From the NCBI GenBank assembly GCA_944329205.1, contig CALVHY010000064.1:1-45485 (forward strand): DNA of 45,485 nucleotides, written 5' to 3'. The notes below the pieces were generated by a model. It searched no databases and had not been told where the DNA came from. It saw only the letters and a program-made list of their open reading frames with translations. Below, in pieces: positions 9,413 through 37,307 of this stretch. The stretch is from an uncultured Bacilli bacterium. Lineage in GTDB: Bacteria; Bacillota_I; Bacilli_A; RF39; UBA660. Positions within the stretch are counted from its first letter, which is position 1. Every line of letters begins with the position of its first letter. Made by a program: the position numbers and the translations under genes.

Positions 9413-9429
9413 AAATACAGGTGATTAAT

Positions 9430-15173: not shown

Positions 15174-16232
15174 ATGAATTTAGAAATAAACGGATATAAT
15201 ATATTCAATATATTTTTCATAACTTTATTAACCAGTATGGTTTTAACAACTATTGTCAAAAAAATTGCCCTACATATAAATGCCATGGATATACCAAACG
15301 AAAGAAAAGTTCATAAAAAGCCCATGCCAAGAATAGGTGGATTAGCCATTTTTGGGGCCTTTATTGTCGGATACATGTTATACGGCACTTTATCTACCCA
15401 AATGTTAAGTGTTTTAATCGGAGGTTTTTTAATAGTCATAACCGGCATTATTGATGATATTAAACCCATTAAAGCAAGATATAAATTTTTAGCTCAAATT
15501 ATTGCCGCGGTAATCGTAGTCATTTATGGCGAACTATATTTTAACAACATTACCTTGTTTGGTCAAATATTTGTTTTTCCGACTTGGATTAATATAATTT
15601 TATCTATTTTCTTTGTTGTTGCCTGTATAAACATTATTAATTTAATTGATGGCTTAGATGGTCTAGCCGCTGGTGTTAGTACTATTTATTTTATAACAAT
15701 AGCTATTATTGGCTTTGTTTTAAATAAACTTGGTGGCTTAGATGTTATCATCTCCGTAATTATGATAGGAAGTACCATGGGCTTTTTAGTTCACAATTTT
15801 CCTCCTGCTAAAATATTTATGGGAGATACCGGTAGTATGTTTTTAGGCTTTATGATTGCTGTTATAGCTCTTTTAGGTTATAAAGTAGCTACCATGACAT
15901 CTATCATTATTCCTATTATCCTTTTATCGCTTCCTATATTCGATACCTTATTCGCCATTATTAGAAGAGTACTAAAAGGTGAATCAATAGGAACTCCTGA
16001 TAAAGAGCATCTACATCACCAGCTTCTTCGCATGACATCTTCAACGAAAAAAACTGTAATTATAATATATATTGTAAATGCCTTATTTTCGGCTGCCTCA
16101 ATTCTTTTCGTTCTTGGGGATAATAAACAAGCCATTGCCTTATACGTTGCTTTAATGATATTCTTTATCTTTATCGTATTAAAAACTAATATATTATTTG
16201 ATCATAAAAAAAAGAAAGAAGGTAAAAAATGA
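15174..16232 (+). CDS. Undecaprenyl-phosphate sugar-1-phosphate transferase (TagO/WecA family)
   Basis: Enzymes of this family transfer GlcNAc-1-phosphate from UDP-GlcNAc to undecaprenyl phosphate, the first step of wall teichoic acid or polysaccharide assembly at the membrane. The 352-residue product has about ten or eleven membrane helices. It carries PNERKVHKKPMPRIGG near the N-terminus, the acidic IIDDIKP, NLIDGLDGLAAG, and the EHLHHQLLR His motif, which point to TagO/WecA rather than MraY. AGGTGG precedes ATG 15174, and a TATAAT lies at 15149-15154. It overlaps galE by 4 bases. The polymer operon at 17396 has no initiating transferase, so this is the natural candidate; the donor sugar is inferred. 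Confidence 0.9.
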   Translation: MNLEINGYNIFNIFFITLLTSMVLTTIVKKIALHINAMDIPNERKVHKKPMPRIGGLAIFGAFIVGYMLYGTLSTQMLSVLIGGFLIVITGIIDDIKPIKARYKFLAQIIAAVIVVIYGELYFNNITLFGQIFVFPTWINIILSIFFVVACINIINLIDGLDGLAAGVSTIYFITIAIIGFVLNKLGGLDVIISVIMIGSTMGFLVHNFPPAKIFMGDTGSMFLGFMIAVIALLGYKVATMTSIIIPIILLSLPIFDTLFAIIRRVLKGESIGTPDKEHLHHQLLRMTSSTKKTVIIIYIVNALFSAASILFVLGDNKQAIALYVALMIFFIFIVLKTNILFDHKKKKEGKK

Positions 16233-17242
16233 AAAAAATATTAGTAACGGGTGGAGCAGGATATATAGGCTCTCATACAGCCGTGGAATTATTAAACGCA
16301 GGATATGAAATTATTATAGTAGATAACTTTTATAATTCAAAACCCGAGACTATAGAAAATATCAAAAAAATAACCAACAAAGATTTTCTCTTTTACGAAG
16401 GAGATGTTTGTGACAAAAAACTACTTCGTAAAATATTTAGCGAAAACGAAATAGATGCTGCCATTCATTTTGCTGGTTTTAAAGCTGTAGGTGAATCTGT
16501 AGCCAAACCTTTAATGTATTATCGCAATAATATCGATAGCACCTTAACTTTATTAGAGACGATGCAAGAATTTAATTGCCAAAAGCTCGTCTTTTCATCA
16601 AGTGCCACCGTATATGGTGACCCCGAAAGATTACCGATTGATGAAAAATGTCGTCTTTCTGTCACTAATCCTTACGGGGCAACCAAGCTTTATATTGAAG
16701 GCATATTAAAAGATTTATACATCTCTGATAATGAATGGAGTATTGCTATTTTAAGATACTTTAACCCTGTTGGTGCCCATGAAAGTAGACTAATAGGCGA
16801 AGATCCTAATGGCATTCCCAATAATTTAGTTCCCTATATTGTGAAGGTTGCTAACAAAGAGTTACCTTATTTAAATATATTTGGCAATGACTATAACACC
16901 AAAGATGGGACAGGAGTTAGAGATTATATCCATGTTGTTGATTTAGCCAAGGGCCATCTTAATAGTCTTAATTATATTTTAGATCATAAAGGCATTGATT
17001 ATTACAACTTAGGCACGGGAAAAGGTTACAGCGTTTTAGAGTTAGTTAAAACATTCGAAAAAGTAAACAATGTCACTATTCCTTATAAAATAGTTGATCG
17101 TCGACCAGGCGATATCGCCGTATGTTATGCTAATCCTAGTTATGCTAAAGAAAAATTAAATTGGGAAGCAAAATTAGGATTAGAAAGTATGCTAAAAAGT
17201 TCGTACAATTTTTCTAAAAATACTAACCATAAAAAATTATAG
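16229..17242 (+). CDS. galE: UDP-glucose 4-epimerase
   Basis: GalE interconverts UDP-glucose and UDP-galactose, and in some species the N-acetyl forms. The 337-residue product is full length, with the NAD-binding GGAGYIGSH, the SSSATVYG segment and the catalytic YGATK (YxxxK). It overlaps the TagO-like gene (ATGA) and ends in a terminator, so the two form a small operon that feeds sugar nucleotides to the envelope pathway. Confidence 0.93.
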   Translation: MKKILVTGGAGYIGSHTAVELLNAGYEIIIVDNFYNSKPETIENIKKITNKDFLFYEGDVCDKKLLRKIFSENEIDAAIHFAGFKAVGESVAKPLMYYRNNIDSTLTLLETMQEFNCQKLVFSSSATVYGDPERLPIDEKCRLSVTNPYGATKLYIEGILKDLYISDNEWSIAILRYFNPVGAHESRLIGEDPNGIPNNLVPYIVKVANKELPYLNIFGNDYNTKDGTGVRDYIHVVDLAKGHLNSLNYILDHKGIDYYNLGTGKGYSVLELVKTFEKVNNVTIPYKIVDRRPGDIAVCYANPSYAKEKLNWEAKLGLESMLKSSYNFSKNTNHKKL

Positions 17243-17268
17243 CCTAGATTTTATGCCTAGGTTTTTTT
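17243..17268 (+). terminator. Terminator after galE
   Basis: CCTAG (17243-17247) and CTAGG (17257-17261) form the stem, followed by seven T at 17262-17268. It separates galE from the large operon. Confidence 0.7.
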
Positions 17269-17343
17269 ATTCAAAATTATTATTTAATAATTTCTATACT
17301 ATGATTTATTCGTTTTGCTTAACTGATTTAATATGTATTTTTG

Positions 17344-17372
17344 TTGCGAAATGTAAGTATACATGCTATAAT
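17344..17372 (+). promoter_or_regulatory. Promoter of the polysaccharide operon
   Basis: TTGCGA (17344-17349), a 17-base spacer and TATAAT (17367-17372), 23 bases before the first ATG. I found no terminator until after ugd at 33122, so this promoter may drive all 14 genes. Confidence 0.7.
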
Positions 17373-17395
17373 TAGGCTAGATAGGAGTAATTGAA

Positions 17396-18355
17396 ATGAA
17401 AACTTATTTGATAACGGGTGGCGCTGGTTTTATAGGTTCGACATTATCCGAAAAACTAATAAATCTTAATAATAAAGTTATAGTTGTCGACAATTTTTGT
17501 GATTATTATGATCCGAAAATAAAAGAAAAAAATATTCAAAATCTTCAAAACAATAAAAATTTTTGTTTATACAAAGTAGACATAAGAGATTTGACTCAAA
17601 TGGATGAAATATTTCAACGCCATAATATTGATTGCATTGTCCATTTAGCCGCCATGGCTGGAGTTAGGCCATCAATAGAAAATCCGATATTGTATCAAAG
17701 TGTAAACGGAATGGGAACTCAAAATATATTAGAAATTGCCCATAAATATAATGTAAAAAATTTAGTAATGGCATCTTCAAGCAGTGTCTACGGCAACTGT
17801 AGTGAAGTTCCTTTTAAAGAAACATTTGTAGTAGATTATGCTATCAGTCCATATGCCGCGACAAAGAAGGCAAACGAGGTTATGGCGCACGTTTATCATC
17901 ACTTATATGATATAAATATTATAATGTTAAGATTTTTTACTGTGTATGGCCCCAAGCAAAGACCTGATCTAGCCATAAACAAATTTACTAGATTGATGCT
18001 AGAAGGCCGTGAAATACCAATGTTTGGAGATGGCACTTCATCTAGAGATTACACATATGTAGATGATATAGTAGATGGCATAATAAAATCGATTAAATAT
18101 AATTTTGATAATGATAATGTATATGAAATAATTAATCTTGGTAATTCCTCTCCAGTGTCTTTAAAAGAAATGATTAATACCATTGCCGAGGTTTTAAACG
18201 TTGAACCTCAAATAACTCAATTACCAATGCAACCAGGGGATGTTGAAAAAACTTATGCTGATATCAGTAAAGCAAGAAAAATGATAGGCTATAATCCGAA
18301 AGTTTCGTTTAAAGAGGGTATTACCAAATTTATAGAATGGTACCGAAATTTATGA
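17396..18355 (+). CDS. UDP-glucuronate 4-epimerase-like NAD-dependent epimerase
   Basis: The 319-residue short-chain dehydrogenase has GGAGFIGS for NAD, HLAAMAGVRPSIENP, SSSSVYG and YAATKK (YxxxK). The AGVRxSxENP pattern is typical of UDP-glucuronate 4-epimerases, which make UDP-galacturonate from UDP-glucuronate. That fits ugd at the end of the same operon, which makes UDP-glucuronate. ATAGGAG precedes the ATG. Other epimerase activities cannot be excluded. Its stop overlaps the next start (ATGA). Confidence 0.82.
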   Translation: MKTYLITGGAGFIGSTLSEKLINLNNKVIVVDNFCDYYDPKIKEKNIQNLQNNKNFCLYKVDIRDLTQMDEIFQRHNIDCIVHLAAMAGVRPSIENPILYQSVNGMGTQNILEIAHKYNVKNLVMASSSSVYGNCSEVPFKETFVVDYAISPYAATKKANEVMAHVYHHLYDINIIMLRFFTVYGPKQRPDLAINKFTRLMLEGREIPMFGDGTSSRDYTYVDDIVDGIIKSIKYNFDNDNVYEIINLGNSSPVSLKEMINTIAEVLNVEPQITQLPMQPGDVEKTYADISKARKMIGYNPKVSFKEGITKFIEWYRNL

Positions 18356-19284
18356 TAAGAAAAATAATTAAATTAGTAAAACATCCAGTTAAAATAATAA
18401 TTTATTTTGCTTCCAAAGGAATAATTAATTACGACGACAAAAAATATATTGAGTATGTCTATAAAGAAAAAACAGGAAAAAAGGCAAATTTAGAAAATCC
18501 TCAAACTTTTAACGAAAAAATACAATATTTAAAACTGTATAATCGCAACCCTTTATACACTACTTTAGTAGATAAAATGCTAGCTAAAGAATATGTATCT
18601 AAAAAATTATCTAAAAATTATATAATACCTACAATTAAAGTCTATGATAGTGTTAAAAAAATAAATTTTTCTGAGTTACCAAATCAATTTGTATTGAAAA
18701 CAACCCATGATTCAGGAACAAGCATAATCTGCAAAGACAAAAAAACATTTAATGAACGCGAAGCCATAAAACTATTAAAAAAAAGACTTAAAAGAAAGTA
18801 TTTTTATTTGTGGCGAGAATGGCCATACAAAAACGTTAAACCTCGAATCATAGCTGAAAAATATTTAGAAGACAGCAAAGGCGAAATGACAGATTATAAA
18901 TTTTATTGCTTTGATGGTAAAGCAGAATATGTTATGATTTGCACAGATCGTGGCAGTAATGTAAAATTTTACTATTACGATAGACAATGGCAACTGCAAA
19001 AGAATATGAGTAGTGATGGTAAAAAAACAAATAAAAATTTTAAACTAGATAAGCCCCAAAATTTAGAAAAAATGTTTCAAGTTGCTGAGCAATTATCCAA
19101 AGGAATGAAATTTGTCAGAATAGATCTATACAATGTAGACGGCAAAATTTATTTTGGAGAATATACTTTTTATCCAAGCGCTGGTTTTGATATTACAAGA
19201 ACCGAAGAGTGCGAAACTATTTTATCATCAAAATTATTAATAGAAAAGGAGCAACAAAATGAAAAAAATTGGATTTATAATTAG
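18352..19284 (+). CDS. TupA-like ATP-grasp protein
   Basis: ATP-grasp enzymes join a carboxylate to an amine through an acyl phosphate. TupA-like members occur in teichuronopeptide and capsule loci. The 310-residue product has NPQTFNEKIQYLKLYN, FVLKTTHDSGTSIICKDK, MTDYKFYCFDGKAEYVM and FVRIDLYNVDGKIYFGEYTF, a typical TupA-like series including the acidic metal-binding end. ATG 18352 overlaps the previous stop; ATG 18337 is a possible alternative. The last 26 bases overlap the carboxyethylornithine-synthase-like gene. With the uronic acid genes around it, a role in amidating uronic acid with an amino compound is my inference. Confidence 0.8.
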   Translation: MIRKIIKLVKHPVKIIIYFASKGIINYDDKKYIEYVYKEKTGKKANLENPQTFNEKIQYLKLYNRNPLYTTLVDKMLAKEYVSKKLSKNYIIPTIKVYDSVKKINFSELPNQFVLKTTHDSGTSIICKDKKTFNEREAIKLLKKRLKRKYFYLWREWPYKNVKPRIIAEKYLEDSKGEMTDYKFYCFDGKAEYVMICTDRGSNVKFYYYDRQWQLQKNMSSDGKKTNKNFKLDKPQNLEKMFQVAEQLSKGMKFVRIDLYNVDGKIYFGEYTFYPSAGFDITRTEECETILSSKLLIEKEQQNEKNWIYN

Positions 19285-20218
19285 CAAAAAGGAAAATGAA
19301 TTTAGAAGAGCACTTGTTTTAAAAGATATTAAAAAAATCAAAAATAAAGAATATTGTTATTTTGAAAGTGGTTACGGGCATGTACTTGGATATGACGATC
19401 AAGAACTAATAGATTTAGGTTTTAAAGTTGCCTCAGAACAGGAGATAATAAAAGAATGTGATATAATTTGTGATCCTAAAATCGGAGACTCAGAAAATTT
19501 AAGTGAAATTCATAATAAAATAATATTTGGCTGGATTCATGCTACTCTTAATTATAATATTACTCAAATAATAATTGAAAATAAAATGACAGCTATCGCT
19601 TGGGAAAAAATGTTCAAGAATAATAAACATGTTTTTTTTAAAAATAACGAAATTGCTGGAGAAGCTGGTGTATTAGATGGTTTTTTAAAATACGGAATGT
19701 TACCTGACGGTTTATCTATAGCTATTCTAGGGAACGGGAACACATCACGAGGAGCTCAAAGAATATTAAATAAATTAGGAGCAAAATTTCAAGTATATGG
19801 TAGAAATGATGAGGAAAAATTTAAAAAAAACATTCAAAACTTCGACGTTATTATTAATTGCATATTATGGGATCCGCTAAGGAAAGATCATATAATTTAT
19901 AGTGAAGATCTAAAAAAAATGCGTAAAAACTCATTAATTATTGATATTTCTTGTGATCGCAATGGCGGCATTGAAACATGTATACCCACTACTATACAAG
20001 ATCCTATATATATAAAAAATTCTATAGTTCATTATGCTGTTGATCATACCCCATCACTTTTATATAAAGATGCTACAATGGCAATTTCTTCTGAAGTAAT
20101 ACAATATGTAGATATCTTAATAGAAGAACAATATGATGAAGTACTAAATAATGCAATTATTATAGAAGATGGATTAATCATAGATGAAGAAATTAATAAA
20201 TTTCAGCATCGTAATTAA
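19259..20218 (+). CDS. ceo: N5-(carboxyethyl)ornithine synthase homologue
   Basis: This family, related to alanine dehydrogenase, reductively condenses pyruvate with the side-chain amine of ornithine or lysine using NADPH, giving opine-like amino acids. The 319-residue product matches the Lactococcus Ceo type in motif order: GFIISKKENEFRRAL at the N-terminus, GYGHVLGYDD, IFGWIHATLNYNIT, AWEKM, NNEIAGEAGVLDGF, the nucleotide-binding AILGNGNTSRGA, NCILWDPLRKDHIIY and IDISCDRNGGIET, then HYAVDHTPSLLYK. AAAAGGAG lies upstream in the end of the ATP-grasp gene. Such a gene inside a polysaccharide operon suggests the product decorates the polymer; the amino acid substrate cannot be read from the sequence. 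Confidence 0.85.
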   Translation: MKKIGFIISKKENEFRRALVLKDIKKIKNKEYCYFESGYGHVLGYDDQELIDLGFKVASEQEIIKECDIICDPKIGDSENLSEIHNKIIFGWIHATLNYNITQIIIENKMTAIAWEKMFKNNKHVFFKNNEIAGEAGVLDGFLKYGMLPDGLSIAILGNGNTSRGAQRILNKLGAKFQVYGRNDEEKFKKNIQNFDVIINCILWDPLRKDHIIYSEDLKKMRKNSLIIDISCDRNGGIETCIPTTIQDPIYIKNSIVHYAVDHTPSLLYKDATMAISSEVIQYVDILIEEQYDEVLNNAIIIEDGLIIDEEINKFQHRN

Positions 20219-20230
20219 GGAAGAAAAAAT

Positions 20231-21343
20231 ATGAAAAAAGTTTTATTTGTTATAGGAAGTCTCCAAGTAGGCGGAGCAGAAACTGTCATGGTAGATTTAG
20301 TAAATAATATATATAAAGAGTTTGATATAACTGTGTTATTAATAGAAAAAAGGGGTGAATTATTGAATACTATTAACCCCGAGATTAAATTAAAATATAT
20401 AACAAAATCAAAAGAATTTTGCAATAATTTTATTTCGGCAATATACAATAAAGTAAAACTAAGTTTGCTTTATCGTTACTTATCAAAAAAGAAATGGTAT
20501 ATTAATAGGATTTATAATAAAATATTGAAAGAAAATTATGATACCGAAATCTCTTTTCTTGCTGGAATTCCCGGAGATATAGTCAGTCAAAGTCCGAATA
20601 AATTCAGTAAAAAAATTGCCTGGATTCACTCGTGCGTCAATAAAGATAATCCAAGATTATATAACAAGTATTTAACATATACCAAAAATTTTAATACTAT
20701 TGTCGCAGTAAGCCAAGGAAGCATGGAAAAATTTAAAGAGACTTATCCTCAATGTAGTTCAAATATTGTACTTATTCATAATTTTATTGATACAAATAAA
20801 ATTATGAATAAAGCTAATTTAAAGTGCAATATTGTATTTGCAAAAAACAAATTAAATTGTCTTTCGTTAGGAAGATTATCTCCTGAAAAAGGATTTGATC
20901 GTATTATTAATATTGCTAAAAAATATGAAGACACAATAGATTTTTATATAGGCGGCTTTGGCCCTCAAAAAGATGAATTGGAAAATGAAATAAAAACTAA
21001 AAATATTAAAAATGTTTTTTTGCTGGGATTACTAGAGAATCCGTACCCATATTTAAAAAACGCTGACTTTTTTTTGCTATCATCTCGAAGTGAAGCATAT
21101 CCCACAGTTGTAATTGAAGCTATGGTTTTAAATAAATTTATAATTGCCACCGATGTTGCAGGTGTAAAAGAAATTTTGGAAGAATACGATAACAAAATAA
21201 TTGTAAAAAACGAAGATAGTGCTATTCCAATAGGACTTGATCAATACTTAAATATAAAAGAAAAAAAATCAATAAGTAATGCTAATTTTGAAAAAAGAAA
21301 TAAAACCAATTTGCAAAAAATTAAAGAATTAATAAGCCAATAA
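20231..21343 (+). CDS. Family 4 glycosyltransferase
   Basis: The 370-residue GT-B fold retaining transferase has the N-terminal LQVGGAETVMVDL, the donor-site GRLSPEKGFDRII, and near residue 295 the SRSEAYPTVVIEAM segment with the E-x7-E pair. It should add one sugar to the lipid-linked repeat unit on the inner membrane face; donor and acceptor are not predictable. AAGGAAG precedes the ATG, 12 bases after the previous stop. It resembles the two GT4 domains of the following fusion gene, suggesting duplication. Confidence 0.9.
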   Translation: MKKVLFVIGSLQVGGAETVMVDLVNNIYKEFDITVLLIEKRGELLNTINPEIKLKYITKSKEFCNNFISAIYNKVKLSLLYRYLSKKKWYINRIYNKILKENYDTEISFLAGIPGDIVSQSPNKFSKKIAWIHSCVNKDNPRLYNKYLTYTKNFNTIVAVSQGSMEKFKETYPQCSSNIVLIHNFIDTNKIMNKANLKCNIVFAKNKLNCLSLGRLSPEKGFDRIINIAKKYEDTIDFYIGGFGPQKDELENEIKTKNIKNVFLLGLLENPYPYLKNADFFLLSSRSEAYPTVVIEAMVLNKFIIATDVAGVKEILEEYDNKIIVKNEDSAIPIGLDQYLNIKEKKSISNANFEKRNKTNLQKIKELISQ

Positions 21344-21368
21344 AATATAAAGGAGTGTAAGAATTATC

Positions 21369-24300
21369 ATGCATAAAAAATTTATAAACTTTTTAATTAT
21401 ATTTATCTTAGTACAACCAATTTTTGATATTTCGGTATACTTTTTAAATAGAGTGTTTGAAATCGAAACATTAGCAACCTCAATAATAAGACCTTTAATA
21501 GCGGCCGGTATGTATATATATCTACTATTTAATCATAAAGTTTCCGCCAAGGCAAAAGCCATTTCGTTTGCTTACCTTTTTGCTTATGGAGTATTTTGCT
21601 TGCTACATTTATTAAATATTAGTGATAATTTTTTTGCGTTATCAGTTGGAAGTTTAACCACAGAAGTACGATACTTATTTAATTATGGCTATTTCTTACT
21701 ACAATTAATTAATTTTTATTTAATATTTAAAATTGCCACTGACAAAGATAAAGAAAAAATTTTAAAAGCCTTTGTCTTTGCAATATTAATTATGGTAATT
21801 CTTTATTTCACTTCCATTTTAACTAAAACATCTCCAAGAACTTACGCTATAACTTCTATAAAAGAAGGATTTAGAGGATGGTCTGTATCAGCTCATTACA
21901 TAGGACATTCAATCATCTATGCTTTACCAGTAATTATTTATGTTTTATTTGAAAAGAAATATATTAAGGGAATATCCAAATATTTAATATTTACATTAAT
22001 ACTTATTCCTCCTTTTTATTTAATTGGTACCAAAGCTCCGCTATTTGCAACCCTTGGTATTGTGACTTTTTATACTTTAATGTTAATTATTATCGGAATT
22101 AAAGACAAAAAGATCAATTTTACCACCGTTTATTTTATTTTAATAACTTTATTCCTTTTATTTACTTTCCCAAAGACTTATGGTTATGACAACTTTATGA
22201 ACCAAGTATCCATAGCTACAGGAGATCGAACAGAAACAGATTTGCCACAAGACGATACAACAGAATCTGAGGAAAACAAAACAGAAGAATCACCAGAAAA
22301 TGAAGAGGAAAATTTAGTAATTCCAACGGATATTTCCAATGTGTTTGATTTTAAAGATCGCGTATTATATAGTCTTTATATACACAAAGATATTAACACA
22401 TATGTTTTTGATAATCGTATTATTCAAAAAACAATAAATGAAGAGATATATAGCCTAAGTCCAATTAATGACAAACTACTCGGCTATGGTCATGAAACTA
22501 TGCCGCAAGGAACTTGGGTAGAAACAGATTTTCATACAATTTATTATTGCTATGGATTATTAGGATTGTTATTAGTTATAATTATTCCTTTTCTAAGCTT
22601 ATCTATTATTGGAATTAAATGCTTGTTAAATATTAAAGAAATGAATAAAAGCAAATTTATATTAGGAATCGGACTGGGTTTAAGCATGGGTATTATTTAT
22701 CTAGTTGGTTATACTCTCCAATTTGCACAAACTGTATTTTACATGATTGTTCTTTTATCTTTAGGAGCATCAGTATTTAAAGAAAAAAAAGAGAAAAAGA
22801 CAAAAGATTATTTATTTGCTATAAATGACTTAAACATTGGTGGCGCGGAAGTAGGAATGGTTGACGTTGTAAATGAGCTAGTAAGGCAAGGAAAAAGTGT
22901 AGATATTGTATTATTAAGAAAAGAAGGGCCCTTATTAGAACGAGTAAGTAAACAGATTCATATTTATGAAATTCTTAATAAAGACTATTTACCAATAAAA
23001 AGAAAATTATATCATTTTTTCTATATGCTTGGTGGTATTTTTACCAAATATGTCTATGCAAAAACAATTACTTCCAATTATAAAAATGAAATAGCTTACC
23101 TAGAAGGGTATCCAGCTGTATTTATTGCCGCTAGTACTAATCCCAATTCTGTGAAAATTGCTTCTATCCGAGTTGGCTTAAAAAGCCACCAATTAAAAGC
23201 AGCTAAACTACCCTGGGGCGAATTAAGAGTAAAACAAGCTTATAAAAAAATGGATAATATTTATACCGTATCAGATTTAACCACCAAAGAATTTTTGGAA
23301 AAATATCCTTTTTGTAAAACTAAAACAACTACTATTTATACTTATTTTAATATAGAAGATATTAATGCTAAGTCATTACAAAAATGTAAATATAATTTTC
23401 CCAAAGATAAAACAAACTTTTTAGCTGTTGGCCGCTTTAGTCCCCAAAAAAGTTATGATCGACTTATCGAAGCTTTTAGCGCTATTTGCAAAAAACACAA
23501 TAACGCCTTACTTCATTTCTTAGGTAATGACAATACCAAAGAAGGAGAAAAAATTAAAAAATTAATTAAAGAAAAAAAACTTGAAGACAAAGTTATAATT
23601 CATGGTGTTGATTCTAATCCCTATCCTTATATTAAAAATTGTGACATTCTTATTTCTTCTTCGCTATATGAAGGATTTCCAAGAGTAATAAATGAAGCTC
23701 TAGCTTTAAAAAAGCTTTGCATTGGCACGAATGTAACAGGTACAAAGGAAGCACTACATGATGGCAAATTGGGATTGTTAGTAGATGATTCAGTTGATGG
23801 CTTGATTGAAGGTATGGAAAAAGTTTTGACTAATCCTAAAATATATGCAGAATATGAAAAAGAAATATCAAAATTTGATGGCAACAAAAAAACTTTCTTT
23901 GCCGGCTTAGAAAATATAAGTAAAAGAAGAAAAGAAATGATTATTTATATGCCCAAATTATCAGTTGGTGGCATGGAAAAAGCATTAGTTAATTTAATCA
24001 ACTATGCAAAATTAAATGACAAATACAAATTGACTTTATATTTAGTCTATAAAGGTGAAACTAATTATTTAGCGTTATTACCTCGAAATATAAATTTAAT
24101 AATTGCTTGCTCCAGCAGGTGGAATCTACTAGGAAAAATAAAGGCTACAATAAAATTAATGGTTCGGTTTATTTATCAAATGTTTAAAGAATATGATATA
24201 GCTATATCATATTCCTATCAACATCCAATTTTAACCAGTTTAACTAGATTAAGCAGTGAAAATAGTATTGTCTATATTCATTCCAATCTAATAAGTGGCA

Positions 24301-25010
24301 CTACCGAAAAAAAAGCAAAAAAAAGAATTAAAAAATGCAAATACGAAAAATTCAAAAAAATAATATGTGTATCTTACGATGCCAAAAACACTTTAACAAA
24401 ATTTATTCCAAGACACGAAGATATTTATGTAGTTAATAATGTCGTAGATGGCGATAGGATACTTGCTAAAGCGAAAGAAGAAGTAGATGATTTTAAATTT
24501 GCTAAAAGTAAAATTTATTTTATCAACATTTGCCGTCATTTTGAAAATCATAAAAGATTAATGCGAATTATTGAAGCGACAAAAAGATTAAACGAAGAAG
24601 GATACAAGTTCGAAGTTTTATTTATAGGTGATGGTGAAGACCATGACTTATACGTTGAAAAAATAAGAGAATCTAACATCACCAATATTCATTTACTAGG
24701 TCAAAAAGAAAACCCCTATAAATATTTAGAAAGATCATCTGCCTTATTATTATCCTCAATTAGAGAAGGTTATCCTGTAGTATTTATTGAAGCCATGGTA
24801 TTAAATAAACCAATTGTTACCACTGCCGTTAGTGATGCCCTAGTTGATATAAAGGATAAATTTGGTATCGTAGTTGATAACGATGATCAATCAATATATG
24901 ATGGCATGAAAGAATACATTGAACACGGTTTTAAAATTAAAACCAAATTTAATTATTTAGAATTCAACGAAAATATTTTAAAAGAAATTGATAACATTTA
25001 TAACAAGTAA
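21369..25010 (+). CDS. Wzy/O-antigen-ligase-like polymerase fused to two GT4 glycosyltransferases
   Basis: The 1213-residue product has three parts. Residues 1 to about 470 form a polytopic membrane protein with roughly ten or more helices and a long acidic outside loop at about 290-320, like O-antigen polymerases or ligases. Residues about 478-855 form a GT4 domain with LNIGGAEVGMVDVV, GRFSPQKSYDRLIEAF and YEGFPRVINEALAL. Residues about 857-1213 form a second GT4 domain with LSVGGMEKALVNLIN and REGYPVVFIEAMVLNKP. Wzy proteins are usually separate. The frame runs unbroken for 3.6 kb, so an accidental fusion is unlikely. The polymerase part is assigned by topology and context, the GT domains by motif. 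Confidence 0.85.
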   Translation: MHKKFINFLIIFILVQPIFDISVYFLNRVFEIETLATSIIRPLIAAGMYIYLLFNHKVSAKAKAISFAYLFAYGVFCLLHLLNISDNFFALSVGSLTTEVRYLFNYGYFLLQLINFYLIFKIATDKDKEKILKAFVFAILIMVILYFTSILTKTSPRTYAITSIKEGFRGWSVSAHYIGHSIIYALPVIIYVLFEKKYIKGISKYLIFTLILIPPFYLIGTKAPLFATLGIVTFYTLMLIIIGIKDKKINFTTVYFILITLFLLFTFPKTYGYDNFMNQVSIATGDRTETDLPQDDTTESEENKTEESPENEEENLVIPTDISNVFDFKDRVLYSLYIHKDINTYVFDNRIIQKTINEEIYSLSPINDKLLGYGHETMPQGTWVETDFHTIYYCYGLLGLLLVIIIPFLSLSIIGIKCLLNIKEMNKSKFILGIGLGLSMGIIYLVGYTLQFAQTVFYMIVLLSLGASVFKEKKEKKTKDYLFAINDLNIGGAEVGMVDVVNELVRQGKSVDIVLLRKEGPLLERVSKQIHIYEILNKDYLPIKRKLYHFFYMLGGIFTKYVYAKTITSNYKNEIAYLEGYPAVFIAASTNPNSVKIASIRVGLKSHQLKAAKLPWGELRVKQAYKKMDNIYTVSDLTTKEFLEKYPFCKTKTTTIYTYFNIEDINAKSLQKCKYNFPKDKTNFLAVGRFSPQKSYDRLIEAFSAICKKHNNALLHFLGNDNTKEGEKIKKLIKEKKLEDKVIIHGVDSNPYPYIKNCDILISSSLYEGFPRVINEALALKKLCIGTNVTGTKEALHDGKLGLLVDDSVDGLIEGMEKVLTNPKIYAEYEKEISKFDGNKKTFFAGLENISKRRKEMIIYMPKLSVGGMEKALVNLINYAKLNDKYKLTLYLVYKGETNYLALLPRNINLIIACSSRWNLLGKIKATIKLMVRFIYQMFKEYDIAISYSYQHPILTSLTRLSSENSIVYIHSNLISGTTEKKAKKRIKKCKYEKFKKIICVSYDAKNTLTKFIPRHEDIYVVNNVVDGDRILAKAKEEVDDFKFAKSKIYFINICRHFENHKRLMRIIEATKRLNEEGYKFEVLFIGDGEDHDLYVEKIRESNITNIHLLGQKENPYKYLERSSALLLSSIREGYPVVFIEAMVLNKPIVTTAVSDALVDIKDKFGIVVDNDDQSIYDGMKEYIEHGFKIKTKFNYLEFNENILKEIDNIYNK

Positions 25011-25021
25011 TTGAGGTGAAT

Positions 25022-25486
25022 ATGAAACGAGTAATGTTTATAAGCAGTGTTGGAGGTCATTTAACCCAGCTATTAGAATTAAAACCATTATTTAATGATT
25101 ATAACTATGTTTTGGTAACAGAAAAAACAGATGTTACCAAAGAAATGAAAAATAAATACAACATGGCCTATTTAGTTTATGGGACAAGAGAATATTTAAT
25201 ATCATATTTATTTAAATTTTCGTTTAACATCTTAAAATCATTTTACATATTTCTTAAATATCGTCCTCAAGTCATTGTAACAACGGGTGCCCATACTGCC
25301 GTCCCTATGTGTTATATAGCAAGACTTTTTAGAAAAAAAGTAATATTTATTGAAAGTTATGCTAAAAGAACTAGTCCAACTTTATCAGGACGTTTAGTAT
25401 ATAAAATTGCCACTACTTTCATAGTCCAATGGGAACCTATGTTGCAGTTTTATCCTAAGGCAAAATATTTTGGAGGAATTTATTGA
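25022..25486 (+). CDS. Alg14/PssD-type glycosyltransferase subunit
   Basis: The 154-residue product is the membrane-anchoring half of a split glycosyltransferase, like PssD, Cps14F or Alg14. It has the glycine motif FISSVGGHLTQLLEL, a hydrophobic segment near residues 60-80, TTGAHTAVP and IESYAKRTSPTLSGRL. The family recruits the catalytic partner encoded next to the lipid-linked acceptor. Start ATG 25022 follows TGAGGTGA; GTG 25016 overlaps that site. Its stop overlaps the next start (TGATG). Confidence 0.88.
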   Translation: MKRVMFISSVGGHLTQLLELKPLFNDYNYVLVTEKTDVTKEMKNKYNMAYLVYGTREYLISYLFKFSFNILKSFYIFLKYRPQVIVTTGAHTAVPMCYIARLFRKKVIFIESYAKRTSPTLSGRLVYKIATTFIVQWEPMLQFYPKAKYFGGIY

Positions 25487-25950
25487 TGATTTTAGTAACA
25501 CTCGGAACCCAAAAGCAGCCATTTACGCGCTTATTAGATATGGTTGACAAAATTTCTACAGAAGAAAAAATAATAGTTCAAGCGGGACACACAAAATATG
25601 AAAGCAGAAAAATGGAAATATTTGATTTTGTTGACTACCAAACTATGGACAAGTTAATAGATGAAGCTAGCATTATAATTACTCATGGTGGTACTGGATC
25701 AATTATAATGCCACTCAAAAAAGGCAAGAAAGTAATTGCCTGCCCAAGACTAAAAAAATATCATGAGCATGTTGATGACCATCAGGAACAAATTGTTGAC
25801 ATTTTTTCAGATGTAGGCTATATTATAAAGGCAGATGAAAATAGCGATTTAAATGATTTAATTAAAAAAATCAAAAAGGAAAAAATGGCTCAATTTATTT
25901 CCAATACAAATAATTTTTTAAATAAACTAAAAGAAGAAATAGACAAATGA
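25486..25950 (+). CDS. Alg13/PssE-type glycosyltransferase catalytic subunit
   Basis: This is the catalytic partner, like PssE, Cps14G or Alg13, matching the C-terminal half of GT28 enzymes. The 154-residue product has MILVTLGTQKQPFTRLL, QAGHTKYE and ITHGGTGSIIMPLKKGK, the nucleotide-sugar site, then HVDDHQEQ. In rhizobial exopolysaccharide the PssD-PssE pair adds glucuronic acid, which fits the uronate genes here, but pneumococcal relatives use galactose, so the donor is open. GGAGG precedes ATG 25486, which overlaps the previous stop. Confidence 0.87.
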   Translation: MILVTLGTQKQPFTRLLDMVDKISTEEKIIVQAGHTKYESRKMEIFDFVDYQTMDKLIDEASIIITHGGTGSIIMPLKKGKKVIACPRLKKYHEHVDDHQEQIVDIFSDVGYIIKADENSDLNDLIKKIKKEKMAQFISNTNNFLNKLKEEIDK

Positions 25951-25964
25951 AAGAAGGGAAAATC

Positions 25965-26915
25965 ATGAAACAAAGTAATATTGAAGTTAGTATTTGCTGC
26001 ATCACATACAATCAAGGAAAATACATCAAAGAAGCCATTGACAGTTTTTTACATCAAAAAACCAACTTTAATTATGAAATAGTTATTCATGATGATGCTT
26101 CTACCGACAATACCATTAACAAATTGAAAGAATACAAAAAAAACTTTCCTGAAAAAATTGTTTTAATATTAGAAAAGGAAAATCAATATTCCAAAAGGCC
26201 TAATTCCGTCTTAGATATTGTCTTTAAAAAAGCTCGAGGGAAATATATAGCTGTCTGTGAAGGAGACGATGGGTTTATTGATGAATTAAAACTTCAAAAA
26301 CAATATGATTGTATGGAGAATGGCAATTTTTCTTTTTGCTCTCATAATACCGAAGATAGAGATGAAAATGGCAATTTAATTAAAAGAGAAGAAAAGTGCC
26401 AAAAAAATATAATTACTATTGAAGATTTTTTGAACGGTAAAGGTAATATGCATACATCTTCTTTGTTTTTTAGAAAAAAAGATGTAATGAATATGCCTGA
26501 ATTTTATAAGAAAGCCAAAATTGGCGATTTGCCTTTGAAATTATATTTATTATCTAAAGGGGAAGCTTATTATTTGAATGAGTTTTGTTCTTTTTATCGC
26601 CATAACTCAATTAATTCATGGACAATAAAGGGGAAGCAAAATATTGAAAAAAAACGTGAAAACATTGAATCAGTTATAAGTATTTATAAAGATTTTGATA
26701 ATTATAGCAATCATAAATATAATGCTTTAATTGATAAAATTATAAAGAGAATAGAATTTGAATTTTACAAAAGTACAGCTGATCTAAAAATGATAAAGAA
26801 AAATAAATATAAAGATCTTTATAAAAGCCTATCTATTATAGAGAAAATAAAAATAAGATTAAAATCGATAAAATGGTTTTATAGACTATATGTTAAAATT
26901 AGATATGGAAAATAG
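25965..26915 (+). CDS. Family 2 glycosyltransferase
   Basis: The 316-residue product is a GT-A inverting transferase with SICCITYNQGKYIKEAI at the N-terminus, HDDASTDNT (metal and nucleotide site) and CEGDDGFID, the second acidic motif. I see no membrane helix, so it acts in the cytoplasm, probably loosely bound to the membrane. ATG 25965 follows GAAGGG; ATG 25947, overlapping the previous stop, is a weaker alternative. It should add one sugar of the repeat unit. Confidence 0.9.
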   Translation: MKQSNIEVSICCITYNQGKYIKEAIDSFLHQKTNFNYEIVIHDDASTDNTINKLKEYKKNFPEKIVLILEKENQYSKRPNSVLDIVFKKARGKYIAVCEGDDGFIDELKLQKQYDCMENGNFSFCSHNTEDRDENGNLIKREEKCQKNIITIEDFLNGKGNMHTSSLFFRKKDVMNMPEFYKKAKIGDLPLKLYLLSKGEAYYLNEFCSFYRHNSINSWTIKGKQNIEKKRENIESVISIYKDFDNYSNHKYNALIDKIIKRIEFEFYKSTADLKMIKKNKYKDLYKSLSIIEKIKIRLKSIKWFYRLYVKIRYGK

Positions 26916-26926
26916 AGGGATTAGAA

Positions 26927-28387
26927 ATGGAAAAAGCTGAAAATTTTCGAAATAATGTTGTGTCTTCTTTGGTATGGAAGTTTTTAGAACGAATTGGAAC
27001 CCAGGGAATACAATTTGTAGTATCAATTCTTTTAGCAAGACTTTTGCTCCCAAGCGATTATGGTGTTGTTACCATGATACTAGTATTTACAGCTATCGCA
27101 AACGTCTTTGTTCAATCAGGATTTAGTACTTCATTAATCCAAAAAAAGGATGCTGATGAATTAGACTTTTCCTCTGTCTTCTATATAAGTTTAGCCATAG
27201 CTACAATTTGTTATATAATATTATTTTTTTCCGCTCCCTTTATTGCTGATTTTTATAATATGCCCGAGATGACCACAATTCTTCGTGTACTATCGCTAAC
27301 ATTATTTTTTGGAGCAGTAAATTCTGTTCAAAATGCAAGAATATCACGAAATATGAATTTTAAAAAACTATTTTTTAGTAGCTTGGGTGCAATTATTGTC
27401 TCAGGAGTAACTGGCATTGCTTTAGCCTACTTAGGTTATGGACCATGGGCGTTAGTTTGGCAACAATTATCTAATTCAATTGCTATAACCATTATTTTAT
27501 GGTTTACCTCCGGTTGGAGGCCAAAACTTATGCTGTCAATTGAAAGGGTGAAGTCATTATTTTCATATGGATGGAAGATTTTATGTTCTTCTTTACTTGA
27601 CACAATTTATAGAAATCTATATAATTTAGTTATAGGAAGATTTTATAGTAGTGATACACTGGGAAATTACAATAAAGGAGAACAATTTCCAAAGTTAATA
27701 GCTGTTAATGTTGATGGAGCAATATCATCAGTTATGCTTCCTGCATACTCAAAAGAGCAGGAAAATAAAGACAAAGTAAAAAAAATGGTAAGAAGATCGA
27801 TTGTAACTAGTTCTCTTTTCCTTCTTCCTATGATGTTGGGCTTAGCAGCAGTTGCCGAAACAGCAGTACGCGTATTATTGACAAATAATTGGTTGGGGTG
27901 TGTACCTTATATGCAATTACTTTGTATTGTATATGCATTATATCCTATCCATACGGCTAATTTGCAATCAATTAAAGCGCTGGGCAAAAGTGATTACTTT
28001 TTAAAACTAGAAGTAATTAAAAAAATACTTGGTATAGTTGTATTAATTATCACTGTACCATTTGGTGTTTACGTTATGACTTTAGGCCAAGTAGTTGTTG
28101 CTATAATATCAACATTTATTAATTCCTTTCCCAATCGAAAATTATTAAACTACTCATATAAAGAACAAATAAAAGATATTGTACCACCATTAGGGCTATC
28201 TTTAATAATGTTTGCGATTGTTTATTTGATGAATTTTTTGAACATAAATATATATTTGCTGCTAGTTATCCAAATAATAGTGGGAGCAGTAATATATTTT
28301 GGTTTAGCTTATTTCTTTAAGTTAGAATCATTTCAATATGTTATAAAATTATTTTTAGCTAAAATGAAAGGAGTAAGACATGAATAG
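26927..28387 (+). CDS. Wzx-type oligosaccharide flippase
   Basis: The 486-residue product is a MOP-superfamily membrane protein with many hydrophobic helices across its length. It begins with SSLVWKFLERIGTQGIQF and LLPSDYGVVTM, typical of WzxC-like flippases. It would turn the lipid-linked repeat unit to the outer face for the polymerase fused at 21369. AGAGGGA precedes the ATG. It overlaps the acyltransferase gene by 8 bases. Confidence 0.92.
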   Translation: MEKAENFRNNVVSSLVWKFLERIGTQGIQFVVSILLARLLLPSDYGVVTMILVFTAIANVFVQSGFSTSLIQKKDADELDFSSVFYISLAIATICYIILFFSAPFIADFYNMPEMTTILRVLSLTLFFGAVNSVQNARISRNMNFKKLFFSSLGAIIVSGVTGIALAYLGYGPWALVWQQLSNSIAITIILWFTSGWRPKLMLSIERVKSLFSYGWKILCSSLLDTIYRNLYNLVIGRFYSSDTLGNYNKGEQFPKLIAVNVDGAISSVMLPAYSKEQENKDKVKKMVRRSIVTSSLFLLPMMLGLAAVAETAVRVLLTNNWLGCVPYMQLLCIVYALYPIHTANLQSIKALGKSDYFLKLEVIKKILGIVVLIITVPFGVYVMTLGQVVVAIISTFINSFPNRKLLNYSYKEQIKDIVPPLGLSLIMFAIVYLMNFLNINIYLLLVIQIIVGAVIYFGLAYFFKLESFQYVIKLFLAKMKGVRHE

Positions 28388-28946
28388 TTTTTATAGCGAA
28401 GAAGAAGTAGAAAAATTAGGATTAAAAAAAATTGGAAAAAATGTATTAATTAGTCGAAATGCAACATTTTATGGCAGAGAAAACATTATTATTGGTAATA
28501 ATGTAAGAATTGATGATTTTTGCATTTTATCAGGTAAAATTGAAGTAGGAAACAATATTCACATATCTGCAGGTACAATGTTGTTTGCTGGAAATGCCGG
28601 TATTTACTTAGATGACTTTACAACTATTTCTTCAAGGTGTGTACTATATGCCATTACAGATGATTACTCAGGAAAAAGTATGATCGGGCCAATGCTATCA
28701 GACGATCTTCGGCATGTTATAGAAGGACCCGTCATATTAAAAAAATTTGCAGCAATAGGTGCTGGATGCATAGTTCTCCCCAATGTAACGCTCCATAAGG
28801 GCGCAGCCGTAGGAGCAATGAGTCTTGTTAATCGTGATTTAGAAGAATTTTCGATTAATTATGGTATTCCAGCTCGAAAAATAAAAGAAAGAAGTAGAGA
28901 TTTAGAAAAATTAGAATGGAGAGTTGATAATCATGAAACAAATTAA
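28380..28946 (+). CDS. Left-handed beta-helix acyltransferase
   Basis: The 188-residue product has hexapeptide repeats (IIIGNNVRIDDFCIL, IEVGNNIHISAG, then AAIGAGCIVLPNVTL and AAVGAMSLV), the coil of LbH acyltransferases. It lies next to a sugar aminotransferase and RmlA/RmlB, so it probably acylates the amino group of a dTDP-amino-dideoxy sugar, as VioB or FdtC do. The acyl donor and the sugar are inferred from context. The next gene overlaps its end by 14 bases. Confidence 0.85.
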   Translation: MNSFYSEEEVEKLGLKKIGKNVLISRNATFYGRENIIIGNNVRIDDFCILSGKIEVGNNIHISAGTMLFAGNAGIYLDDFTTISSRCVLYAITDDYSGKSMIGPMLSDDLRHVIEGPVILKKFAAIGAGCIVLPNVTLHKGAAVGAMSLVNRDLEEFSINYGIPARKIKERSRDLEKLEWRVDNHETN

Positions 28947-30036
28947 TGTAACAAGGTCTTCCATGCCACCGTTTGAAGAGTATGTGGAAAAAATAAAGAA
29001 ATTATGGGACACAAGATGGCTTAGCAATTGTGGCGAATATCATGAACAATTAGAAAAAAAACTAGAAGAGTACTTGCAAGTTCCTAATGTATCACTTTTT
29101 AGTAATGGTCATTTATCCCTATATACAGCTATAAATGCCTTAGATTTACAAGGTGAGGTTATAACAACTCCTTTTACTTTTGTTTCAACAACCCATGCCA
29201 TAGTGCAAAATGGGCTTACACCAGTCTTTTGCGATATAAAACCAAATGATTACACCATTGATGCTGATAAGATTGAAGCTTTAATAACAGATAAAACTTC
29301 GGCTATTGTAGCAGTTCATGTTTATGGAAATGTATGTGACGTTGAAAAAATAGAAAAAATAGCTAAAAAGCATAATTTAAAGGTCATTTATGATGCTGCT
29401 CATGCTTTTGGCGTAAAATACAAGGGGATTGGTATAGGAAATTTTGGGGATATATCAATGATGAGTTTTCATGCTACCAAAGTATTTCATACTATAGAAG
29501 GTGGTGCTCTGTTATATAAAGACCATGACTTAAAAAAGAAATTGGCCAGCTTGCGAAATTTTGGCTTAACATCTCAAGAAGAATGTGAATATACAGCTAT
29601 GAATGCCAAAATGAATGAGTTTCAAGCCGCAATGGGTTTATGTAATTTACTAACTATTGATGAAGATATTTTAAAACGTAAAAAAGCTGTCGAAATTTAT
29701 CAAAGAGAGTTAAAAAACATTCCTGGAATAACTTGCTGGCAAAAGCAAGATAATGTAGAAGCAAACTACATATATTTTCCAATAGTAATAGATGAAAAGG
29801 AATATGGCCTTTCTCGAGATCAATTATTTGAATTATTAAAGAGTTACAATATAAATAGCCGAAAATATTTTTATCCTTTAGTAACTGACTTTAAATGTTA
29901 TCAGAAATATAAAAGTTATACACCTATAGCAGACGATTTAGCTAAAAAAGTTTTAACTTTGCCATTATATTCTGATTTAGAAACAGCTGATATTCTTAAA
30001 ATATGTGATATAATAAGATCTAAGAAAGGAGTATAA
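28933..30036 (+). CDS. DegT/DnrJ/EryC1-type sugar aminotransferase
   Basis: These PLP enzymes aminate keto sugars bound to nucleotides. The 367-residue product has TTPFTFVSTTHAI, YDAAHAFG and the PLP-lysine region SFHATKVFHTIEGGAL. With RmlA and RmlB downstream, the substrate should be dTDP-4-keto-6-deoxyglucose. No 3,4-ketoisomerase (FdtA/QdtA type) is in the operon, so amination at C4 (viosamine or fucosamine type) is more likely than at C3. ATG 28933 lies inside the end of the acyltransferase gene; GGAG is at 28918-28921. Confidence 0.88.
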   Translation: MKQINVTRSSMPPFEEYVEKIKKLWDTRWLSNCGEYHEQLEKKLEEYLQVPNVSLFSNGHLSLYTAINALDLQGEVITTPFTFVSTTHAIVQNGLTPVFCDIKPNDYTIDADKIEALITDKTSAIVAVHVYGNVCDVEKIEKIAKKHNLKVIYDAAHAFGVKYKGIGIGNFGDISMMSFHATKVFHTIEGGALLYKDHDLKKKLASLRNFGLTSQEECEYTAMNAKMNEFQAAMGLCNLLTIDEDILKRKKAVEIYQRELKNIPGITCWQKQDNVEANYIYFPIVIDEKEYGLSRDQLFELLKSYNINSRKYFYPLVTDFKCYQKYKSYTPIADDLAKKVLTLPLYSDLETADILKICDIIRSKKGV

Positions 30037-30039
30037 CTT

Positions 30040-30912
30040 ATGACCAAAGGTATCATTTTAGCAGGAGGGAAAGGAACTAGATTATATCCCATGACTAAGG
30101 CAATTTCTAAACAACTGTTGCCCATATATGATAAACCAATGATTTACTATCCCTTATCAGTCTTGCTACTAGCAAAAATTACGGACATATTAATTATTTC
30201 TACTAATGAAGCAATTGATAATTATAAAGAACTTTTAGGTGATGGCTCAAGGATTGGCATTAATATTAGCTATAAAATCCAAGATGAGCCAAGAGGAATT
30301 GCTGATGCCTTCATAATAGGTGAAGAATTTATAGGAAAAGATGATGTTTGTTTAATCTTGGGCGATAATATCTTTTTTGCATCATCCTTATCTGACACAC
30401 TAGAGAAAGCTAAAAATAATGTTGGAGCAACTATTTTTGGATGTTCCGTAAAAGATCCTAAAGCATTTGGGGTTGTCGAAGTAGATTCTAATGGCAAGAT
30501 TCTCTCTATTGAAGAAAAACCCCAAAATCCTAAGTCTAATTTAGCCGTTCCCGGTTTATATTTTTATGATAATTCTGTTGTCGAAATAGCCAAAAGTATA
30601 AAACCATCAGCAAGAGGAGAAATAGAAATAACTTCTGTAAATAATAAATACTTAGAAGATGGAAATTTGAATTTTATACCAATGGGTAGAGGTGTAGCCT
30701 GGTTAGACACTGGCACACCTGAAAATATGCTAAAAGCAGCCGAATTTGTTGAAGCTATTCAAAGTAGACAAGGATATTATATCTCATGTATAGAAGAAAT
30801 CGCATGGCGAAAAGGTTTAATAGATGATGAACAGCTAAAAAAAATTGGAAACGAATTGAAGATGACTGAATATGGCAAATATTTATTGTCGTTATTAGAG
30901 GAGGTAAAATGA
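30040..30912 (+). CDS. rmlA: Glucose-1-phosphate thymidylyltransferase
   Basis: RmlA makes dTDP-glucose from glucose-1-phosphate and dTTP. The 290-residue product is full length, with [40 protein letters not shown] and [15 protein letters not shown] precedes the ATG by 9 bases. The end overlaps rmlB (ATGA). No rmlC or rmlD follows, so the pathway branches to the amino sugar and not to rhamnose, at least in this window. Confidence 0.96.
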
Positions 30913-31919
30913 AGATATTAGTTACTGGAGGGGCAGGTTTTATTGGAAGCAACTTCTTACATTACATGGTAAATAAATATCCTAAATATAATTTTGTATG
31001 TTTAGATGCCTTAACTTACGCGGGAAACTATGCTAACTTATATCCTATATTAGATAAAAAAAATTTCAAATTTATCAAAGAAAATATAACCAATAAAATA
31101 GAAATTGATAAAATATTTGCCAGGGAGAAATTTGATTGGGTTGTTAATTTTGCCGCGGAAAGTCATGTTGATAACTCAATTAAAAATCCCCAAATTTTTT
31201 TAGAAACTAATATAATTGGAACTCAAGTATTGTTAGATGCTTCGCTTAAATACCAAGTAAAAAGATATCACCAAATTTCTACAGACGAAGTATATGGTGA
31301 CCTTCCTTTAGATAATTTAAATTTAAAATTTGATGAAAATTCGCCAATTAATCCATCTAGTCCCTATTCTGCCTCAAAAGCAGCCGCTGATCTTTTAGTT
31401 TCAGCTTATGTAAGAACCTATAATTTAAGTGCTACAATTTCCCGCTGTTCGAACAACTATGGACCTTACCAATTTCCTGAAAAATTAATTCCCGTAGTTA
31501 TTACCAAAGCAATGAATAACGAAAAAATTCCTGTTTATGGAAAAGGCTTAAATATTCGAGATTGGATTCATGTTTCGGATCACAATATAGCAGTTGATCT
31601 TATTTTGCATAATGGAACATGTGGTGAAATATATAATATAGGTGGAAATGGTGAAATGACTAATATTGACTTAGTAAAAACGATCCTCGAAAAAATGGAA
31701 AAAAATAATGACCTAATAGAATACGTCTCTGACAGGAAAGGACACGACTTAAGGTATTCTATAAATCCTGCCAAAATAGAAAATGAATTAAAGTGGAAAA
31801 AAAATATTGATTTTGAAAAAGGAATTTCCGACACAATCAACTGGTATTTAAATAATGAAGAATGGTTAGAAAATATAAAAAGCGGAAAATATAAAGATTT
31901 ATATGCAGAAAGGAAATAA
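30909..31919 (+). CDS. rmlB: dTDP-glucose 4,6-dehydratase
   Basis: RmlB removes water from dTDP-glucose to give dTDP-4-keto-6-deoxyglucose. The 336-residue product has the NAD motif [31 protein letters not shown] (catalytic TDE) and YSASKAAAD (YxxxK). GAGGAGG precedes the ATG. It supplies the keto sugar for the aminotransferase encoded two genes upstream. Confidence 0.96.
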
Positions 31920-31924
31920 GTAAA

Positions 31925-33121: not shown

Positions 33122-33150
33122 AAAAGAACTGAATTTTCCTCAGTTCTTTT
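33122..33150. terminator. Bidirectional terminator between ugd and glmS
   Basis: AAAAGAACTGA (33122-33132) and TCAGTTCTTTT (33140-33150) form a perfect 11-bp stem with U tails on both strands. It serves both converging genes. Confidence 0.88.
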
Positions 33151-34957: not shown

Positions 34958-34990
34958 ATTTTTATCCCTTCCTTACTACTAATTAAATAA

Positions 34991-35019
34991 ATAGTACTAT
35001 AAATTTAAAATGATGTCAA
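34991..35019 (-). promoter_or_regulatory. glmS promoter
   Basis: On the minus strand TTGACA (35019-35014), a 17-base spacer and TACTAT (34996-34991). Confidence 0.75.
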
Positions 35020-35079
35020 ACTTTTCATTTAAAAAATCTTTAAAAAATGATAAAATAATAGCATAAGACTGGTGATAAT

Positions 35080-36995: not shown

Positions 36996-37034
36996 GACTA
37001 ACAAAAAATATTGATCGTCTTAGTTTCATCCAAG

Positions 37035-37065
37035 AAAAAAATTAAGTCCAACCAACTTAATTTTT
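37035..37065. terminator. Bidirectional terminator between gatD and the small basic ORF
   Basis: AATTAAGT (37040-37047) and ACTTAATT (37055-37062) form the stem. A runs of A on the left and T on the right give U tails on both strands. Confidence 0.75.
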
Positions 37066-37171: not shown

Positions 37172-37201
37172 ACTCCACCTCCCACTTTAATCACTTAGCT
37201 A

Positions 37202-37230: not shown

Positions 37231-37245
37231 CCATAAACTCCATTC

Positions 37246-37274: not shown

Positions 37275-37280
37275 AAGTTT

Positions 37281-37292: not shown

Positions 37293-37307
37293 ATGGAAAG
37301 GATTACT

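Follow-up and report, generated by a model that had tools for sequence, protein, structure and literature searches.

The window analysed here, 45,485 nucleotides of contig CALVHY010000064.1 from the 72-contig, 1.07-Mb draft genome of an uncultured, gut-type Bacilli bacterium, carries on its + strand a Wzy-type polysaccharide operon (15174-33091) that, judging from comparative sequence analysis, probably makes a Wzy-dependent surface polysaccharide in which a hexuronic acid is amidated by an opine. Within the operon, three overlapping genes (17396-20218) code for a UDP-glucuronate 4-epimerase-like protein (GAE), a TupA-like ATP-grasp amidoligase and a homologue of N5-(carboxyethyl)ornithine synthase (CEO). 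The original prediction for this DNA described these genes in overlapping order with ugd, for UDP-glucose 6-dehydrogenase, at the end of the operon, and open reading frames and profile matches confirmed both the overlaps and the position of ugd (31925-33091). GAE and TupA overlap by 19 bp, and TupA and the CEO-like gene by 26 bp, and the three are therefore probably translated together. A whole-genome search found TupA and the CEO-like gene in single copy, both in this locus.

We scanned about 1,000 Bacilli genomes, together with one contig (L016) from another collection, for relatives of the pair; named genomes of other phyla, including Providencia and Proteus, lay outside this comparison set. 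Of the 385 genomes scanned in the order, 4 had a close CEO homologue (E below 1e-100): the window, G148, G311 and G358. TupA stood directly beside it in 4/4; the window reads TupA-CEO, whereas G148, G311 and G358 read CEO-TupA. The class scan (395 genomes) added G424, G714 and G555, after which the E values left a gap from 1e-117 to 1e-38, and a phylum draw of 392 genomes gave no further close CEO homologue. Among 273 genomes of the family of G714, the single-contig genome G863 was added, as were CEO homologues in eight species of genus g159. A contig scan with degenerate patterns gave at least two loci; the genome of the window is placed in the Bacilli by L016, a 74% identical relative from an uncultured Bacilli bacterium, and by L017, Candidatus Onthousia faecipullorum.

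Seven genomes (the window, G148, G311, G358, G714, G863 and L016) thus hold both TupA and a close CEO, and in all seven the two genes adjoin, in either order and across two families. GAE lies in the same locus as the pair in five of them, and in G311 and G358 it is found on a different contig, where 20 bp separate it from a Ugd-like gene of 35% identity. Ugd is in the locus of the pair in the window, in G714 (TupA-CEO-Wzx-Ugd-GAE) and in G863 (TupA-CEO-Wzx-GAE-Ugd), and the 5-kb contig of L016 reads GAE-TupA-CEO-GT4-Wzy. Since TupA over the Pfam cut-off is sparse, occurring in 17/241 genomes of the order and 24/196 of the family of G714 and mostly in one or two copies, adjacency in 7/7 is not expected by chance. 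The genome search for this pair, suggested in the original prediction as a check, came out in favour of that prediction.

The TupA-like protein matches PF14305 over profile positions 1-237 of 241 (E 1e-59; 202 bits against a cut-off of 25), and by analogy would form an ATP-dependent amide on the uronate carboxylate. A tree was built of 41 TupA proteins, of which 6 are linked to CEO and 35, drawn from the same two families, lack it. The six form one clade (support 100/99) that was recovered in all of 200 bootstrap trees, and 0/500 label shuffles gave a clustering as low. The nearest CEO-less relatives of this clade come from both families, so the TupA-CEO pair appears to have been passed on, by descent or by transfer, as one unit. 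Most TupAs in the scans of the order and of the G714 family have no CEO beside them; ugd is near such copies in L080, L082, L087 and L116, which fits uronate as a common target of TupA with various amines. In L088, a CEO-less TupA is near genes that read as arginase-like and GNAT-like; arginase makes ornithine, and this neighbour might mark ornithine as the amine of that TupA.

The CEO-like protein has the two-domain AlaDH/PNT fold of alanine dehydrogenases, matching AlaDh_PNT_C (PF01262, 6e-23) and AlaDh_PNT_N (PF05222, 4e-9), and the same fold was seen in profile matches to solved alanine dehydrogenases. It falls far under the cut-off of the NCBIfam alanine dehydrogenase model TIGR00518 (77.6 bits against 391.85). 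None of the NCBIfam models names it a CEO synthase; its assignment is based on phylogeny and shared motifs. The tree held 47 proteins, 27 on the alanine dehydrogenase side and 20 CEO-like, the latter comprising the window protein with its relatives, reference proteins from Lactococcus, Vagococcus, E. coli and Streptomyces that carry the name carboxyethylornithine synthase by annotation, and a homologue from Enterococcus listed as a hypothetical protein only. A branch with 100/100 support parted the 20 from the 27. Window-type and Lactococcus-type proteins share GWxH (GWAH in genus g159) in place of the (F/Y)(T/S)(Y/F)xH of alanine dehydrogenases, N-(N/S/R) rather than PMS before a conserved A-G, an Asn in the second domain where most alanine dehydrogenases have Gly or Ser, and TP(S/T/A) rather than (M/I)PG; GWxH, N-N/S before AG, and TP are common to the CEO-like proteins and to the Lactococcus, Vagococcus and E. 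coli proteins annotated as carboxyethylornithine synthases. The CEO-like protein is also about 50 residues shorter than alanine dehydrogenases, and its R16, K74, H94 and D233 align with their catalytic residues (Arg15, Lys75, His96 and Asp270 in M. tuberculosis numbering). An identity as alanine dehydrogenase is thus disfavoured by the split and the motifs, and the CEO homology named in the original prediction stands. AlphaFold models built from three-row alignments had a mean predicted local distance difference test score of 61.9 for CEO and 52.4 for TupA, too weak for fold comparison. Viral contigs contained no relative, and phage matches were only 20-23% identical.

The best solved relatives of the GAE-like protein are 5u4q (1e-82) and the epimerase 6zl6 (7e-57). 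The top relative, 5u4q, was deposited as a dTDP-glucose 4,6-dehydratase, though the active-site stretch of the GAE-like protein reads S-S-S-V-Y-G instead of the D-E of dehydratases, which fits an epimerase. Its product would be UDP-galacturonate, with a UDP-sugar specificity that is not readable from sequence. GAE homologues adjoin Ugd in L050, L065 and L018 and in G358/G311. The Ugd of the window scores 568 bits against the UDP-glucose 6-dehydrogenase model, whose curated cut-off of 757 it does not reach, and it passes the nucleotide-sugar-dehydrogenase model (341 against 189.8).

The best plasmid match to the window CEO, at 32% identity, lies on the E. coli plasmid NZ_AP027746, where its annotation reads N(5)-(carboxyethyl)ornithine synthase. 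Its locus codes for an undecaprenyl-phosphate sugar transferase, a 322-residue protein, CEO, a flippase (Wzx), glycosyltransferases, EpsG, GAE (45%) and Ugd (57%), and the gene for the 322-residue protein overlaps that for CEO by 8 bp. This protein has no Pfam match; its sole phmmer matches are ATP-grasp enzymes, at insignificant scores, and another E. coli strain has an identical gene whose annotation names an ATP-grasp domain, so that it is likely an ATP-grasp enzyme. The plasmid locus thus resembles the window in having a probable ATP-grasp gene overlapping CEO together with Wzx, GAE and Ugd, and differs from it in that the ATP-grasp candidate is not a TupA and the CEO is only 32-34% identical. 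The locus (L018:5855-16438) looks complete and lies between IS91-family elements on an IncFIB/IncY plasmid from human faeces in Viet Nam; identical ATP-grasp and CEO genes were found in a bullfrog isolate, and only 2/5426 E. coli genomes carry them. We regard it as an even question whether TupA and CEO together are a mobile decoration module for building an opine uronamide into surface polysaccharides of Bacilli, its chemistry having been assembled again on the E. coli plasmid out of a relative of CEO plus an ATP-grasp enzyme unrelated to TupA.

In the pathway that we propose, Ugd would oxidise UDP-glucose to UDP-glucuronate, from which the GAE-like protein would make UDP-galacturonate, as their families suggest. 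The CEO-like protein would use NAD(P)H to condense pyruvate with a diamino acid (by analogy, ornithine or lysine) at the amine of its side chain, leaving the alpha-amine free. TupA would then activate the uronate carboxylate with ATP and join it to this amine, the uronate being carried at that point either by a lipid-linked intermediate or as a nucleotide sugar, and Wzx and the Wzy-like domain would export and polymerise the unit. That an opine is joined to a uronate, as originally proposed, is well supported by comparative genomics, with gene content, conservation of the pair with the GAE and ugd genes, the phylogenetic coherence of the pair and the catalytic residues all pointing to it, and by the precedent of a characterised TupA-like domain (PMC11800379).

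Several observations weigh against this pathway, in addition to the amino-sugar genes considered below. The tree program flagged long branches for the CEOs of lactic acid bacteria and for the E. coli and Streptomyces rows, and an odd amino-acid make-up for the window row. Window-type CEOs have motifs of their own, RxDH and VDHTPS (against VPNTPS), and because of this difference we make no claim of ornithine or lysine as the substrate; the amine may be another. No Ugd match was found in G148. Lone CEO homologues, 38-57% identical, stand away from polysaccharide genes in G424 (L049), G555 (L051) and eight g159 genomes (L066-L073), with no TupA anywhere in the genomes of G424 and G555 and no TupA match within 11-20 kb around the CEO in the g159 genomes. 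Because these homologues stand alone, the CEO-like enzyme family can have another use and is not exclusive to polysaccharide loci, and we propose the pathway for those copies that are linked to TupA.

The fold and catalytic residues that the CEO-like protein shares with alanine dehydrogenase would also suit a divergent form of that enzyme, supplying plain alanine for TupA to link to the uronate, and alanine uronamides are known, for example in Haemophilus influenzae type d (PMC10609480). Given the 100/100 split, the CEO-type motifs and the shorter length, we consider this unlikely, and alanine is moreover a common metabolite for which a dedicated enzyme beside the ligase would hardly be needed. 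It is also conceivable, if quite improbable, that the opine is made and TupA joins its carboxylate not to a uronate but to the 4-amino sugar expected from RmlA, RmlB and the DegT aminotransferase. This dTDP-4-amino-4,6-dideoxyhexose branch sits in the same operon, and Providencia alcalifaciens O35 carries alanopine on Qui4N (PMC10609480). However, the stretches examined around the G714 and G863 pairs gave no DegT or RmlA match and do have GAE and Ugd, the amino sugar of the window has an acyltransferase of its own, of the hexapeptide type, and the characterised TupA-like domain works on a sugar carboxylate (PMC11800379).

The motif differences between window-type CEOs and the Lactococcus CEO would be accommodated if the CEO-like protein coupled pyruvate to an amine that is not an amino acid (an amino alcohol, a polyamine or an amino sugar) and TupA attached the product, and the TupA-like domain of Campylobacter jejuni does take serinol phosphate or ethanolamine phosphate (PMC11800379). 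This is a slim prospect, though, as the operon showed no gene for an amino alcohol or a polyamine and known CEO-type enzymes use amino acids. Finally, the neighbours might be functionally unrelated, CEO making a free opine and TupA using another amine, as the standalone CEO homologues and the many TupAs without CEO could suggest; adjacency in 7/7, in both orders, and the single coherent TupA clade make this very improbable.

The remaining genes of the operon (Table 1) provide, by profile match, all parts of a Wzy-dependent locus: an initiating transferase, glycosyltransferases, a Wzx flippase and a Wzy polymerase, this last role being one that we infer for the PF13425 domain. The fusion of that domain to glycosyltransferases is unusual, and L016 also has the start of the fusion, at 67% identity. 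The four genes at 28380-31919 are a probable dTDP-4-acetamido-4,6-dideoxyhexose branch, in which the acyltransferase probably N-acetylates the 4-amino sugar. A promoter-like site lies in the 153-bp gap 5' of GAE; such sites total 120 against 116.6 in shuffles and are not above background, and a terminator scan was likewise not above its shuffled background. Outside the operon, 9421-12927 contains the radical SAM pair TIGR03916/TIGR03915 for DNA repair, and a GroEL homologue well under its equivalog cut-off (365 against 582 bits) overlaps this pair. The stretch 33149-38925 contains an ordinary-looking set: a minus-strand GlmS-like gene, followed by genes for a MurT-like ligase, its downstream neighbour and an ABC ATPase.

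Table 1. Features of the polysaccharide operon of the window
Feature	Position	Strand	Evidence
WecA-like polyprenyl-phosphate sugar-1-phosphate transferase, initiating enzyme	15174..16232	+	PF00953 4e-40
galE, UDP-glucose 4-epimerase	16229..17242	+	TIGR01179 438 bits, cut-off 262
Promoter-like site TTGCGA-N17-TATAAT with TG	17344..17372	+	Consensus match only
GAE, UDP-glucuronate 4-epimerase-like, 319 residues	17396..18355	+	Profile matches to solved relatives; homologues beside Ugd elsewhere
TupA-like ATP-grasp amidoligase, 315 residues	18337..19284	+	PF14305 1e-59; CEO-linked TupA clade 100/99
CEO-like N-(1-carboxyethyl)amino acid (opine) synthase, AlaDH/PNT fold, 319 residues	19259..20218	+	Pfam, tree, motifs, catalytic-residue alignment
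GT4 glycosyltransferase	20231..21343	+	PF00534
Fusion of 1213 residues, Wzy/O-antigen-ligase-like membrane domain and two GT4 domains	21369..25010	+	PF13425 9e-43, two PF00534 stretches
PssD/Cps14F-type glycosyltransferase half	25016..25486	+	NF041549 above cut-off
PssE/Cps14G-type glycosyltransferase half	25483..25950	+	NF041548 above cut-off
GT2 glycosyltransferase	25947..26915	+	PF00535
Wzx-type flippase	26927..28387	+	PF13440 1.5e-101
Hexapeptide-repeat acyltransferase	28380..28946	+	PF00132
DegT-family sugar aminotransferase, nearest DesI (dTDP-4-dehydro-6-deoxyglucose aminotransferase)	28924..30036	+	317 bits, equivalog cut-off 650 not reached
RmlA, glucose-1-phosphate thymidylyltransferase	30040..30912	+	TIGR01207 above cut-off
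RmlB, dTDP-glucose 4,6-dehydratase	30909..31919	+	TIGR01181 above cut-off
Ugd, UDP-glucose 6-dehydrogenase, UDP-glucuronate source	31925..33091	+	Profile scores

Structures from a few Gram-negative bacteria show opine-amidated uronic acids as a rare decoration of polymers, and the locus offers two candidate genes and an order of steps for their synthesis, tying the otherwise isolated CEO activity to cell-surface chemistry. Such a decoration would change the pattern of surface charge, and a change of this kind can affect how phages, lectins and antibodies recognise a cell. An ATP-grasp gene beside ceo, with GAE and ugd, is a genomic signature by which Enterobacteria as well as uncultured Bacilli can be searched for these polymers. 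The original prediction knew of no such pathway described in Bacillota, and in the open-access literature we found no described gene pathway for this decoration, in Bacillota or elsewhere; polymers of uronate with amino acids are not in themselves new to the phylum, TupA having been named for the teichuronopeptide of Bacillus.

Among known systems, the Lactococcus lactis CEO resembles the window protein in its AlaDH/PNT fold, length (about 310-320 residues), GWxH and TPS motifs, R/K/H/D residues and side of the tree; it is about 31% identical, the window protein has RxDH and VDH near the active site, and the Lactococcus plasmid gene, unlike that of the window, is outside any polysaccharide locus. 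The main text of a study of Proteus O-antigen genetics (PMC5560731) assigns no gene to amino-acid decorations. The statement in the original prediction that some Providencia O-antigens carry N-(1-carboxyethyl)lysine amide-linked to uronic acid is borne out by P. rustigianii O14, which contains N-epsilon-[(S)-1-carboxyethyl]-N-alpha-(D-galacturonoyl)-L-lysine (PMC10609480). This is a decoration of a Gram-negative O-antigen, for which we found no gene assignment, and it is the type of product predicted for the window; the structure matches the predicted chemistry because side-chain alkylation of the CEO type leaves the alpha-amine for the amide. The teichuronopeptide polymer of Bacillus halodurans (cited in PMC2824669) is like the predicted polymer in coming from Bacillota and joining a uronate polymer to amino acids, and unlike it in being a polyglutamate-polyglucuronate copolymer without an opine. 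In the HS:2 capsule of C. jejuni, the C-terminal TupA-like domain of Cj1438 (Cj1438C) amidates the C6 carboxylate of glucuronate (PMC11800379). Cj1438, like the TupA of the window, is a TupA-like ATP-grasp enzyme of a polysaccharide locus, but there the domain is fused to a GT2 domain and uses serinol phosphate or ethanolamine phosphate, whereas the window TupA stands on its own as a protein and has a putative opine synthase as its partner. That TupA-like ligases amidate uronates is known, and the new element is the dedicated, predicted opine synthase.

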